NCBI RefSeq assembly: GCF_947495665.1
Contig: NZ_CANLZV010000015.1
Coordinates: 1 to 64,000 of the forward strand
DNA length: 64,000 bases
Origin: an uncultured Sunxiuqinia sp.
GTDB taxonomy: Bacteria > Bacteroidota > Bacteroidia > Bacteroidales > Prolixibacteraceae
Direction: 5' to 3'
Below the pieces are notes generated by a model that worked only from the letters and a program-made list of their open reading frames with translations, made no database searches and had not been told where the DNA came from. Numbering within the stretch: the first letter of the stretch is position 1; every line of letters begins with the position of its first letter. The translations under genes were made by a program, and so were the position numbers. Below, one piece after another: positions 23,664 to 58,165 of the stretch.

Positions 23664-25622
23664 ATGGATGCCAACATGAAAACACTATTTAAAGCCACAC
23701 TCTATTTTGTATTGATCGCCCTTGGAATCATCCTGGTGGCCACCCTCATTTTTAACAGCTATTACAGGCTGGTGAACAAGCGAGCGGAAAAAGAACTGCA
23801 GGCAGTATCCTTATTAACTGTTGACGGGCTTCAGTTTCGTGACCTGAATAAGAACGGAAAGCTTGATCCTTATGAAGACCGCCGCCAGCCGGTGGAGGTT
23901 CGGGGGGACGATATTCTGAAACAAATGACACTGGAAGAAAAAGTTGGTTTGATGTGGCATCCGCCAATTGGCATTGACGACGGAGGTGAGCTTCAAGCCA
24001 AGCCCAGCATCCTCAGCCCGGTTTCGACCTACGACGCCATCATCCACCGAAAGCTTAATCATTTCAACCTGTTTGCGGTTCCCGGAACACGGGAGCTGGC
24101 ACTCTGGTCGAACAAAATCCAGCAACTGGCCGAGAAAACACGGCTGGGCATTCCGGTAAGCATCAGCACCGACCCGCGACACGGCATTCAACCCGATACC
24201 GACCTATTGGGGGGAAACTGGTCGAGATGGCCGGCCCCCATTGGGCTGGCAGCTACCCGCGACTCGGCGCTGGTGGTTGAGTTTGGACGCATCGCCAGCC
24301 AGGAATACCGTGCCGTAGGCATCCGGACAGCCCTTCACCCCATGGCCGACCTGGCTACCGACCCGCGCTGGGCCCGCATCAACGGCACCTTTGGCGAAGA
24401 TGCCCAGCTGGCAGCCCAAATGACCGCCGCTTATATTTACGGCTTTCAGGGCGATGAGCTGGGCCCCAACAGTGTGGCCTGCATGACCAAGCACTGGCCA
24501 GGTGGCGGCCCCCAGGAAAACGGCGAAGATGCCCACTTTCACTATGGCAAAAACCAGGTTTACCCCGGCAACAATTTCAAGTATCATTTAATTCCGTTTC
24601 AGGCTGCCTTAAAAGCCAACACGGCCATGATCATGCCCTATTACGGCATTGCGGTGGACCAGACCAATGAAAATGTGGGCATGAGCTTCAACAAGGAAAT
24701 CATTACCAAGCTGCTGCGCGAAGAATACGGATACGATGGCGTGGTATGTACCGACTGGGGCATCATTGAAGGGTTTTCGTTTCTGGGGTACGAATTGGTG
24801 GAAGCCAAAAACTGGGGCGTGGAGAAACTTCCGGTTGAAGAGCGGATTGCCAAGGTCATTCGTGCCGGTGTTGACCAGTTTGGCGGCAACATGCATACCC
24901 GCCAGCTGCTTCGGCTGGTCCGGAAAGGCGAAATTTCAGAAAATCGAATTGATGAATCGGCCCGCCGCTTGCTACGCGCCAAATTTGTGCTGGGCTTGTT
25001 CGACGATCCTTTTGTTGATCCGGACCGCGCGGTTGAGATTGTCAACCAGGAAGCCTTTGCCGCCAAGGGGAAGTTAGCCCAGCGTCGATCACTGGTGCTG
25101 CTGAAAAACAAAGCAAACGCTACAGGCACGCCGATCCTTCCGCTGCAAAAAGGAATTAAGGTGTACACCGAGAATATTGCTCCCGCAGCAATCTCAAACT
25201 ATGCCCAGCCAGCCAAACTGGATGAAGCTGATGTGGCCATCCTGCGCCTGAGAACGCCTTTCGAAGAGCGGGATGACGATTTCATGGAGAATAAGTTCCA
25301 CCAGGGAAACCTGAATTTCCCCGAACCCGAGCTGTCCCGGATCCTGAAGATCATACAGCAAAAACCCACCATTATTTGCCTGTATATGGACCGCCCGCCG
25401 GTGATTCCCGAAATCAACCGCCAGTGCAGTGGCCTGCTCGCCGACTTTGGCGCCCAGGATGATGCCGTGCTGGATGTTTTATTTGGAAACTACACCCCAA
25501 CAGGAAAGCTGCCTTTCGAAGTGCCATCGTCCATGGAAGCAGTAAGCGCCCAAAAGGAAGACCTGCCCTACGACTCAAAAGACCCCTTGTTTCCCTTTGG
25601 CTTTGGACTGACTTACGAGTGA
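23664..25622 (+). CDS. Membrane-anchored GH3 beta-glucosidase-like enzyme
   Basis: The 652-residue protein has an N-terminal membrane segment (about 9-32), a short EF-hand-like acidic loop DLNKNGKLDPYED (60-72), the GH3 (beta/alpha)8 domain with KHWPGGG (276-282), and the nucleophile Asp364 in GYDGVVCTDWG. A C-terminal alpha/beta sandwich follows to residue 652, ending at a typical PFGFGLTY. Such enzymes hydrolyse beta-linked glucosides or xylosides in the periplasm or at the membrane. It is divergent from the alpha-glucan cluster and acts on a different linkage type, so the neighbourhood does not imply a shared pathway. Met5 is an alternative start. Confidence 0.9.
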   Translation: MDANMKTLFKATLYFVLIALGIILVATLIFNSYYRLVNKRAEKELQAVSLLTVDGLQFRDLNKNGKLDPYEDRRQPVEVRGDDILKQMTLEEKVGLMWHPPIGIDDGGELQAKPSILSPVSTYDAIIHRKLNHFNLFAVPGTRELALWSNKIQQLAEKTRLGIPVSISTDPRHGIQPDTDLLGGNWSRWPAPIGLAATRDSALVVEFGRIASQEYRAVGIRTALHPMADLATDPRWARINGTFGEDAQLAAQMTAAYIYGFQGDELGPNSVACMTKHWPGGGPQENGEDAHFHYGKNQVYPGNNFKYHLIPFQAALKANTAMIMPYYGIAVDQTNENVGMSFNKEIITKLLREEYGYDGVVCTDWGIIEGFSFLGYELVEAKNWGVEKLPVEERIAKVIRAGVDQFGGNMHTRQLLRLVRKGEISENRIDESARRLLRAKFVLGLFDDPFVDPDRAVEIVNQEAFAAKGKLAQRRSLVLLKNKANATGTPILPLQKGIKVYTENIAPAAISNYAQPAKLDEADVAILRLRTPFEERDDDFMENKFHQGNLNFPEPELSRILKIIQQKPTIICLYMDRPPVIPEINRQCSGLLADFGAQDDAVLDVLFGNYTPTGKLPFEVPSSMEAVSAQKEDLPYDSKDPLFPFGFGLTYE

Positions 25623-25715
25623 GGAAGAGTGACAGTTGATAGTTATCAGTTCCTGAGTGCATGAGTACATGAGGATTTGGACTCATACGTTTGTCGATTT
25701 TTAATGACTTTTGTG

Positions 25716-25784
25716 AACATCACCTACTCCTTTCTCCTCCTGCCAAGGAGGAGTCCTTTCGCCCAACGCGAAAGGGAGGTGGTT
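25716..25784 (+). repeat. REP-like element A, downstream of the DUF559 gene
   Basis: This 69-bp element is identical at 68 positions to 26397-26465. It holds two consecutive palindromes: CTCCTCC-TGCCA-GGAGGAG and CTTTCGC-CCAAC-GCGAAAG. It ends 38 bases beyond the stop of the DUF559 nuclease gene. Confidence 0.9.
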
Positions 25785-25822
25785 GTTGGGAATTTTAGTT
25801 CGGAGTGCATAAGTCAGTTAAA

Positions 25823-26194
25823 TTACTTTTTTGCTTTTCGCTCCTTAACTTTCTCAATTTCCTCAATAATATCCTGTGGGTATTCATAAACCCAGCGATT
25901 TTCAAAATGAAGAACTTCAATCCCATTCTGTTTCATAAATGCGTCTCGTTCACGATCTTTCTCTTCAGCATGGTATCCGGCGTGCGTTTCTCCATCCAGT
26001 TCAATGGCCAGCTGAAGTCCTGGGCAATAAAAATCAAGGATGTAGTTTCCAATAGAATGCTGCCGTCTGAATTTTAGCTTAGCAACTTGTTTGTTTTTTA
26101 GCAGTTTCCACAAGCTTGCTTCAGCAGCCGTTGAATGACTACGTAAGCCTTTGCGGTAATTCTTCAGGTAGTTATGGTTATTAAGCCTGACCAT
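25823..26194 (-). CDS. DUF559-family (VSR-like) endonuclease domain protein
   Basis: The 123-residue protein is a stand-alone DUF559 domain: TAAEASLWKLLKNKQ (22-36), KFRRQHSIGNYILDFYC (41-57) and AIELDGETH (63-71). These give the acidic residues Asp54, Glu65 and Asp67 and His71 of a PD-(D/E)xK / VSR-type nuclease active site. A basic, charged C-terminus follows. Function is unknown for the family. The gene sits alone between REP-like palindromic elements: one 38 bases downstream, an inverted relative 63 bases upstream, and a direct copy further upstream. This resembles, by layout only, the association of RAYT transposases with REP sequences. Confidence 0.85.
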   Translation of the reverse strand: MVRLNNHNYLKNYRKGLRSHSTAAEASLWKLLKNKQVAKLKFRRQHSIGNYILDFYCPGLQLAIELDGETHAGYHAEEKDRERDAFMKQNGIEVLHFENRWVYEYPQDIIEEIEKVKERKAKK

Positions 26195-26257
26195 TTTTTT
26201 TATTGAAGTTCTGAAAATTACGGGAATTAGTCAAGCTCCTTATTTGCTGCAAGTTTT

Positions 26258-26309
26258 GACCACCCCGTCCCCGACAAGTCGGGGCCACCCCTCCTTGGCA
26301 GGCGGGGAA
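26258..26309 (-). repeat. REP-like element C, inverted, upstream of the DUF559 gene
   Basis: On the minus strand this element contains the same 13-base core as elements A and B (CCTGCCAAGGAGG, at 26290-26302) and ends in GGTGGTC, as they end in GGTGGTT, but its second palindrome differs (CCCCGAC / GTCGGGG at 26269-26284). It is thus a diverged member in the opposite orientation, 63 bases from the start of the nuclease gene. Confidence 0.8.
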
Positions 26310-26396
26310 ATGGGCCTGAGGCGAACAGCAAGGGTTCGAAACTAGATGCATATGTTTGTTTGTCTGGGACACTGTCGGATTATATTGGCTTTAGTA

Positions 26397-26465
26397 AACA
26401 TCACCTACTCCTTTCTCCTCCTGCCAAGGAGGAGTACTTTCGCCCAACGCGAAAGGGAGGTGGTT
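26397..26465 (+). repeat. REP-like element B, second direct copy
   Basis: A 69-bp element with one mismatch to 25716-25784 (C at 25755, A at 26436), carrying the same two palindromes. It lies 203 bases upstream of the DUF559 start codon and 115 bases before the 21-bp tandem array. Confidence 0.9.
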
Positions 26466-26579
26466 ATTGTAAAGCTCATGCTTCATCCATTCAAGGCTTT
26501 TAATCGGAAGATCCCGAAACCCTTGATTTTACTGTCCCCCAGCCAGGTCGGACCCTCCACAGCCTCAATTGATGCTCCC

Positions 26580-26831
26580 ATCGCCCAATTTTTTGATTCA
26601 ATTGGCAATTTTTTCTTTCCATTGGTCAATTTTCTGAATTCATTGGCTGCATTGACAGCTTCATTGCCCACTTTTTTTGACTCCCTCGGGGAAATGATTG
26701 CTTCCATTGGCCATTTTTCAAATTTAATCGGGGAAATTTCCGCTCCAACTGGCTATTGCTTTGATTTAATTGGTCGGAGTAAGGGCCTCATTGGCAATTT
26801 TTCAAAGCCGGCTGGCAAACTCAACCCGCCA
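26580..26831. repeat. Degenerate 21-bp tandem array, 12 units
   Basis: Units starting with ATTGG or close variants begin at 26580, 26601, 26621, 26642, 26663, 26685, 26706, 26727, 26748, 26769, 26790 and 26811. Most contain a T-tract 7-12 bases into the unit. The period is two turns of B-DNA, so the T-tracts fall on one helix face. An open frame crosses it on the plus strand (26346-26894) and reads as a seven-residue repeat of the type xLIGxFS, but its start lies in element B's flank and coding is doubtful. Confidence 0.85.
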
Positions 26832-27143
26832 CGTGCTCTTTTCTTTGGTTTAATTGCAGGAAGGCGGTATTCACAAAGATTGTCAACTATTTAGAACGAA
26901 AACAAAGTACGCTTACCGACACATACATTTAGTAAAGTTTTGTAACTTGATCAGCGAACCTAAAATGACCTAAACGAAAGAATATGAACACGAATAAGCG
27001 CTCCCCTCTAATTTGTGAGCCAGCCCTAAAAAGTTTTTCGACAAAACAAAAAAAGCAATCCGAATAATAGCGGGATATATGTACCTGGTAAATATACACA
27101 GACGTTATAGCCTACTTAACAACCAGCAACGACAAATACACCT
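26832..27143. other. AT-rich spacer between the 21-bp array and the YkgJ-like gene
   Basis: I see no gene in these 312 bases. They become strongly AT-rich to the right, matching the composition of the next two genes. No clear promoter element could be assigned. Confidence 0.4.
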
Positions 27144-34001: not shown

Positions 34002-34073
34002 AGCGGGAAACGGGGATCGAACCCGCGACCCTCAGCTTGGGAAGCTGATGCTCTACCACTGAGCTACTCCCGC
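34002..34073 (-). tRNA. tRNA-Gly (anticodon CCC)
   Basis: The 72-base minus-strand sequence folds into a cloverleaf: acceptor GCGGGAG/TTCCCGC, D-arm GCTC...GAGC, anticodon stem TCAGC/GCTGA with loop TTCCCAA, and T-arm CGGGTTCGATCCCCG. Loop positions 34-36 are CCC, reading glycine GGG codons. The discriminator is U as in glycine tRNAs, and the 3' CCA is not encoded. Confidence 0.95.
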
Positions 34074-58081: not shown

Positions 58082-58165
58082 TGGTGCGGGCGAAGGGACT
58101 CGAACCCCCACGTCAAAGACACTAGATCCTAAGTCTAGCGCGTCTACCAATTCCGCCACGCCCGC
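58082..58165 (-). tRNA. tRNA-Leu (anticodon UAG)
   Basis: The minus-strand sequence folds as a class II tRNA with acceptor GCGGGCG/CGCCCGC, a long variable arm, anticodon stem CTAGA/TCTAG with loop CTTAGGA (anticodon UAG, leucine CUA) and T-arm GGGGGTTCGAGTCCCTT. The discriminator is A and the 3' CCA is encoded (58082-58084 on the plus strand read TGG). Confidence 0.95.

Follow-up and report, generated by a model that had tools for sequence, protein, structure and literature searches.

Does a small nuclease gene that is found between palindromic repeats belong with these repeats, or do the two lie together by chance? The question is raised by a stand-alone DUF559 gene in the stretch of 64,000 nucleotides analyzed here (referred to as the window), which is part of a draft genome of 4.73 Mb in 70 contigs. 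The comparisons described below give good support for an association of the gene with the elements, and we consider, with a probability of roughly 0.55, that the DUF559 gene and the surrounding palindromes make up a single system, either selfish or semi-domesticated.

The DUF559 gene and its elements in the window

The module of ~0.8 kb consists of element A, the DUF559 gene on the minus strand, a diverged inverted element C and element B, and is flanked by a glycosidase gene (23664-25622) on one side and by an array of ~20-nt repeats, which starts at 26586, on the other. The gene (25823-26194, minus strand) encodes a YcjD/Vsr-like protein of 123 aa with a Pfam DUF559 match (E 7.3e-29), and this match agrees with the repeat comparison in placing a stand-alone DUF559 gene between palindromic elements, as the initial annotation had proposed. 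Its finer claims were borne out by the coordinates as well. Element A (25716-25790, plus strand), a double hairpin repeat, lies 38 bases downstream of the gene, and element B (26397-26471, plus strand), upstream of the gene, is a direct copy of A with 97% identity. The 68/69 identity that had been stated for the two corresponds to a single mismatch between 25716-25784 and 26397-26465, and a wider repeat (25692-25788 and 26373-26469) was 91% identical. Element C (26254-26315, minus strand), a diverged inverted copy with the same layout as A, starts ~60 bases upstream of the gene and holds the 13-base core that it was said to share. Exact copies of this core in the 64 kb window were found in A, B and C only; when two mismatches were allowed four were found against 1.5 expected, and 5 of 100 shuffles reached four. 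At gathering threshold the Rfam matches in the window were two tRNAs only (34002-34073 and 58085-58165, both minus strand), and no Rfam family was matched there by A, B or C.

Two consecutive hairpins had been claimed for each element, and for A and B this stands: both fold into two hairpins enclosed by an outer stem (DNA z-scores of -4.9 and -5.3), and none of 200 shuffles folded as well. For C the layout is the same but the fold is weak, with a z-score of -1.3 on the minus strand. Since 21 of 200 shuffles of that strand folded at least equally well, C alone was rejected as proof of a palindrome. Hairpin 1 of element A (25734-25753, plus strand) is made up of a pyrimidine arm (25734-25741) and a purine arm (25746-25753), and among 10 copies from five genomes it varied on one side only. 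Hairpin 2 (25755-25775, plus strand) sits inside the second loop and varies among relatives with a few compensatory changes: in the same 10 copies both sides had changed at five of seven pairs (0 of 500 shuffles reach five), which amounts to six cells in all, with the pairing taken from RNAalifold and so derived from the very alignment on which covariation was tested. Next to it is the tail GAGGTGG (25776-25782, plus strand), which was invariant in the 10 copies. This tail is what we call the third block, a stretch next to the hairpins whose order mirrors the purine arm, here that of hairpin 1, as an antiparallel purine triplex requires; hairpin 2 sits between tail and hairpin 1. It is possible that the tail forms the third strand of a putative triplex, and in the duplex fold part of it also pairs with 25721-25725. 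Perfect mirrored third blocks (G·G, A·A, T·A) were found in A, in C, in an element on contig C6 of the same genome and in the element at E. coli ycjD, for all of which the arms were chosen by hand.

The DUF559 protein also has a weak match to the REase MTES_1575 family, and the YcjD-type model of NCBIfam scored below its cut-off. Residues invariant in 16 aligned homologues include R17, E24, F41, R43, Q44, D53, E64, D66, H70 and D79. The AlphaFold model (pLDDT 87.7) was used in a fold search in which 3hrl, itself matched by the DUF559 profile at E 4e-32, came first, followed as best remaining PDB match by the homing endonuclease I-Bth0305I (3r3p, E 9e-5 by fold), which was also reached by the sequence profile (E 4e-7). 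Weaker fold matches were mitoribosomal proteins, AbaSI/PvuRts1I and Vsr, the last at E 0.04. From model and profiles the enzyme is predicted to be a PD-(D/E)XK, homing-type nuclease. The likeness to I-Bth0305I, which we take to be of the EDxHD type, is one of profile and fold, and that to Vsr one of fold; the window gene differs from I-Bth0305I in that it has no intron, is flanked by repeats and does not lie inside a conserved coding site. A YcjD profile is described as picking up Vsr in the accessible part of PMC1189080, and a DUF559 protein of Caulobacter, VsrA, is placed behind an SOS response in cells without a cytosine methyltransferase in that of PMC12907096.

Four full copies of element A were found in the whole genome, two in the window and one each on contigs C14 (737-806) and C20 (61181-61247), together with fragments. 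The C14 and C20 copies have ~580 bp in common. Each is less than 0.8 kb away from the end of its contig, which puts one side out of view, and on the side available no DUF559 gene was found within the contig stretches. The only other DUF559 match of the genome, on contig C6, also has repeats on both sides, but their sequence belongs to another family.

Repeats and hairpins beside DUF559 genes

Regions of up to 20 kb around 80 DUF559 loci of the window's order, chosen among the matches listed, were combined with the window and the C6 stretch, and an ORF was scored as bracketed when the 500 bases on its two sides shared a repeat of at least 40 bits. As 500 nt were required on both sides, 80 of 91 DUF559 matches entered this first set (78 fetched and two from the window's genome), two of which are fragments of 64 and 67 aa. 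Among the matches listed for the order, 46 of the 80 stand-alone DUF559 genes were bracketed versus 46 of 1073 other ORFs, and 44 of 78 (Fisher p 4e-33) when the two genes of the window's genome were left aside. The repeats were direct at 33 and inverted at 13 of the 46 bracketed genes. At least one bracketed DUF559 gene was present in 36 of 51 genomes, and in the 53 regions having any bracketed ORF the DUF559 gene was the top one in 33, with 5.5 expected.

The hairpins beside these genes were of one polarity. Within 300 bases, hairpins whose 5' arm contains CCC were found at 53 of the 80 DUF559 genes versus 138 of 1073 other ORFs, and hairpins whose 5' arm contains GGG at none of the 80 versus 24 of the 1073. 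C-rich hairpins flanked both sides of the gene in 24 of 80 cases and the median distance between gene and hairpin was 74 bases. Stand-alone DUF559 genes are therefore usually found beside such elements, since 66 of the 80 show a bracket or a C-rich hairpin and 14 show neither sign. Long DUF559 proteins of the same order served as a control (18 of 19 proteins, from 20 regions), and 0 of 18 were bracketed and 1 of 18 had a C-rich hairpin.

A second set was taken from named GTDB genomes (mostly Bacteroidota and some Cyanobacteria, judging by their titles) and from a plasmid collection, and 76 (61 + 15) of its 88 DUF559 genes were used. Brackets were found at 30 of 61 DUF559 genes of the GTDB loci versus 45 of 837 other ORFs. 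Five of these loci, with seven genes, were contigs already in the first set; in the unshared loci 27 of 54 DUF559 genes were bracketed versus 41 of 779 other ORFs, and the CCC hairpin was present at 34 of 54 versus 113 of 779. With the strict script the plasmid-collection loci gave hairpins at 10 of 15 versus 22 of 68 other ORFs and brackets at 3 of 15 versus 4 of 68. Some DUF559 genes of this collection lie inside operons by gene order, as in Sphingomonas, where one was found between sufB and sufC.

A perfect third block accompanied many of the hairpins beside DUF559 genes: 45 of 105 hairpins matched in the mirrored order and 4 of 105 when read unmirrored in the first set, 29 of 92 and 3 of 92 at the GTDB and plasmid loci, and 21 of 68 and 1 of 68 at the GTDB loci unshared with the first set. 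Hairpins beside neighbouring ORFs also had a third block (85 of 198), as would be expected if these hairpins were the same dispersed elements.

For 295 genomes of the order we counted a hairpin pattern, used its reversed form as control and took the count over control as the excess. Of five candidate patterns this one had been selected because it fitted the flanks of DUF559 genes in the same genomes, a choice that favours a positive result. The 99 genomes whose DUF559 match was strong had a mean excess of 21.2 (median 9), the 171 genomes without a match one of 1.5 (median 0; p 4e-11), and the 25 with a weak match, three of which were hairpin-rich, one of 4.2. The reversed pattern gave no difference between strong-DUF559 genomes and those without (p 0.66). 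Within 40 families of mixed composition the genomes with DUF559 had more hairpins in 32, fewer in six and equal numbers in two (p 4e-6), and with the reversed control there was a slight tendency in this direction too (22 up, 13 down; p 0.07). Such hairpins are thus not equally common in genomes lacking the gene. Exceptions, under one and the same rule, were 9 of the 171 genomes without DUF559 which were hairpin-rich and 68 of the 99 with DUF559 which were not. The excess is far greater than the few copies that flank the genes.

BoxC/PIT elements and E. coli ycjD

A class of dispersed repeats with this architecture has a literature of its own. BoxC, described from E. coli in the 1990s, was later named PIT and TMECO, and frequent rearrangement is reported for the loci that contain it. 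According to the accessible part of Holder et al. 2015 (PMC4666352), K-12 holds 23 copies with five inverted A+B pairs, and BoxC loci are unusually variable by a mechanism termed unclear; in the same text neither a transposase nor an integrase is recorded close to the motifs, and no partner nuclease is named. The elements described here share with BoxC/PIT/TMECO a pyrimidine arm, a purine arm, a mirrored G-rich third block, dispersal and inverted pairs. They differ in the second loop, which in element A is a hairpin of 20 nt rather than a short loop (TTA or CCG in E. coli), and in their low copy number. Because of this loop the window family is a variant of BoxC/PIT and not a plain member. Judged by arms and third block, BoxC/PIT-like is a better description of the repeats than REP.

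In E. coli the DUF559 gene is ycjD, whose neighbours are sapF and fabI; adjoining it is a BoxC-type element that fits type A of Holder et al. (TTA in the second loop) as defined in the part of that paper available. At least 80% of the ycjD stretch was covered by one place in 3333 of the 5375 genomes with a match. Two of the remaining genomes were inspected and had an efflux operon at the ycjD position, as also described in the accessible text of PMC12817139. To compare BoxC copy number we used 60 of the 5399 records listed, from which one plasmid row was dropped to leave 59 chromosomes. With a BoxC query from one strain, 12-29 places (n=37, median 20) were counted in chromosomes with the ycjD-locus element versus 1-17 (n=22, median 7.5) in those without, where the split is by coverage of the ycjD-locus query, and where a row with 82% coverage and 88.7% identity was placed in the element-absent group. 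As the split tracks phylogroup (PMC12817139, same portion), it represents few independent events; ST69 and ST182 are reported to retain ycjD although they fall outside phylogroups A, B1 and C.

No link between DUF559 or ycjD and repeats was found in the titles and abstract openings searched, a body of text that mostly excludes the subscription literature. Stand-alone DUF559 nucleases could be the missing mobilisers of BoxC/PIT elements across bacteria, acting by cut-and-repair, with YcjD and BoxC of E. coli as one case, and we see the chances of this as evenly balanced. The pairing, seen again in many other bacteria and in E. coli among them, suggests which gene may partner a class of repeats whose spread has so far been unexplained, and with the candidate nuclease present in K-12 the question is directly testable. 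It also suggests a possible biochemical role for a widespread domain whose function is unknown.

Spread of the elements

If gene and palindromes do form one system, the nuclease would recognise its cognate element as a hairpin, cruciform or triplex and would nick or cut it, and repair from another copy would then spread the element, and the gene too when the donor copy carries it. Such a pair would work like REP-RAYT, or like a homing gene with non-autonomous relatives, with an unrelated enzyme in either case. The embedding of the gene, the copy number and the specificity would be most simply explained by a nuclease that acts on the elements; it may spread them, or it may home into them.

The relatives of the window give examples of both solitary and gene-associated copies. 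Element A was found in five of 60 genomes of the window's family, its own genome included. In one of these (G295) two copies of A lie 736 bases apart with a DUF559 gene in between, and in another (G350) a DUF559 gene is flanked by an A-type element and, across the gene from it, by what looks by eye like a C-type element. No DUF559 gene was found in the 3-kb stretches that contain one further G350 copy or the single copies in G339 and G333. G339 and G350, which are of the same genus as the window, have orthologues of the window's glycosidase with 78 and 76% identity, and within 1.5 kb below these genes neither a DUF559 gene nor, by eye, an element A was found. In G339 an array of 21-nt repeats (L343, 3657-3840) begins ~200 bases past the glycosidase without DUF559 or A between, as if the module were absent from this locus; the far side of the glycosidase region showed no synteny with the window in G339 or G350. 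Another genome, G262, has a dispersed family in which the element at one DUF559 gene gave 47 matches on ~30 contigs. The copies inspected have common ends and a variable spacer, and by eye the full-length copies start with ACCTCACCC and end with GGGTGAGGT, so that they have the fixed inverted termini by which MITEs with TIRs are recognised. Inspection of these copies by eye revealed no target-site duplication.

A different direction of cause would be that the palindromes arise and spread by other means, and that the DUF559 gene only inserts into them as its cutting site. The homing-type fold of the enzyme and the mixture of 33 direct and 13 inverted brackets among the 46 agree with such homing, and the counts give no direction for the correlation between gene and copy number. 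The flanks of paralogues within a genome speak against it: none of 29 pairs with less than 70% identity shared flanking repeats that reach 50 bits, and all six pairs above this identity did. That diverged paralogues share no flanks suggests co-spread rather than insertion into a common pool, with the reservation that four of the six similar pairs are near neighbours and probably local duplications. We regard homing alone as rather unlikely.

The locus had been likened to RAYT genes with their REP elements, and in layout the likeness holds: as in REPtrons, a small nuclease gene has a palindromic repeat to either side, and copies of the repeat are dispersed. It does not extend to membership. The partner here is a predicted PD-(D/E)XK, homing-type DUF559 protein and theirs an HUH tyrosine (Y1) transposase, which upholds the view that the enzyme is from another nuclease family (DUF559 match, homing/Vsr-type fold), and the hairpin type differs. 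The elements were therefore rejected as REPs, since RAYT-type genes of the same order carry another hairpin. If the proposed system exists, a second, unrelated type of enzyme would be added to the REP-RAYT idea. Small palindromes that are reported to lack an association with transposase genes, the CGTC-tagged REPs, are listed for C. crescentus in the accessible part of PMC3733652, and this species has the DUF559 protein VsrA (PMC12907096, in the portion cited above).

Could RAYT-type Y1 transposases nevertheless move the elements, with DUF559 as a passenger? Y1_Tnp matches were present in 204 of the 295 genomes and co-occurred strongly with DUF559: in 233 of the 295 genomes, weak matches of either gene being left out, 82 had both genes, five DUF559 only, 68 Y1 only and 78 neither (odds ratio 18.8). 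Both genes predicted hairpin excess (partial rank correlations of 0.28 and 0.26), and Y1 did so independently among genomes without DUF559 (p 1e-4). The effect of DUF559 among genomes without Y1 was not significant (n=5, p 0.11), one of these five DUF559-only genomes being element-rich. A GGGGWSAS motif in TIRs, reported for some relatives of RAYT (PMC3733652, accessible part), would also suit a Y1 mover. The flanks of 39 of the 42 Y1 matches argue otherwise. A hairpin with a CTACG or CGTAG loop was found at 13 of 39 Y1 genes and 40 of 373 Y1 neighbours versus one of the 80 DUF559 genes of the first set and none of the 61 from GTDB, and C-rich hairpins beside Y1 genes had a third block in 0 of 23 cases. 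The DUF559 hairpin pattern was present at 31 of the 80 and 18 of the 61 DUF559 genes of these two sets and at none of the 39 Y1 genes, a zero which says little because the 373 Y1 neighbours were also without it. The difference in flanking hairpins means that the elements of DUF559 and Y1 look like two repeat systems which tend to share genomes and which may have a shared role. A Y1 transposase as mover of the DUF559-associated elements is in our judgement improbable.

The hairpins could also be local terminators, insulators or autoregulatory sites of the nuclease gene, to which the short median distance and the C-rich hairpins on both sides would be suited. Dispersed copies far from the gene are at odds with this, terminators need neither a strict C-then-G polarity nor a mirrored third block, and PIT elements are stated to be without promoter or terminator activity in the accessible part of PMC4666352, so that we give local regulation very little credence. 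Chance or an artefact of a 70-contig draft assembly, in which two of the four copies lie near contig ends, is hardly credible, as the association was repeated in unshared loci and the ycjD locus is present in complete E. coli genomes.

Beyond the module the window contains further repeats, which are described here in their own right. After the array at 26586-26806, whose units are ~20 nt long, comes a conserved motif of ~86 nt (26880-26965) with 13 further matches in the genome, 12 of them at E 2.3e-6 or better. By eye, at least seven of the 12 other copies are preceded by an array of different sequence, and many copies are followed by one of two types of leader (eight and five good matches), past which the sequences are unrelated, in the manner of a cassette platform. 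The sequence downstream of the module resembles integron-like cassettes. Copies of the motif lie within 300 bases of the ends of contigs C2, C5, C14, C16 and C33, and the repeated sequence beside them looks like IS ends, presumably IS256-like, which may have broken the assembly at these five contigs.
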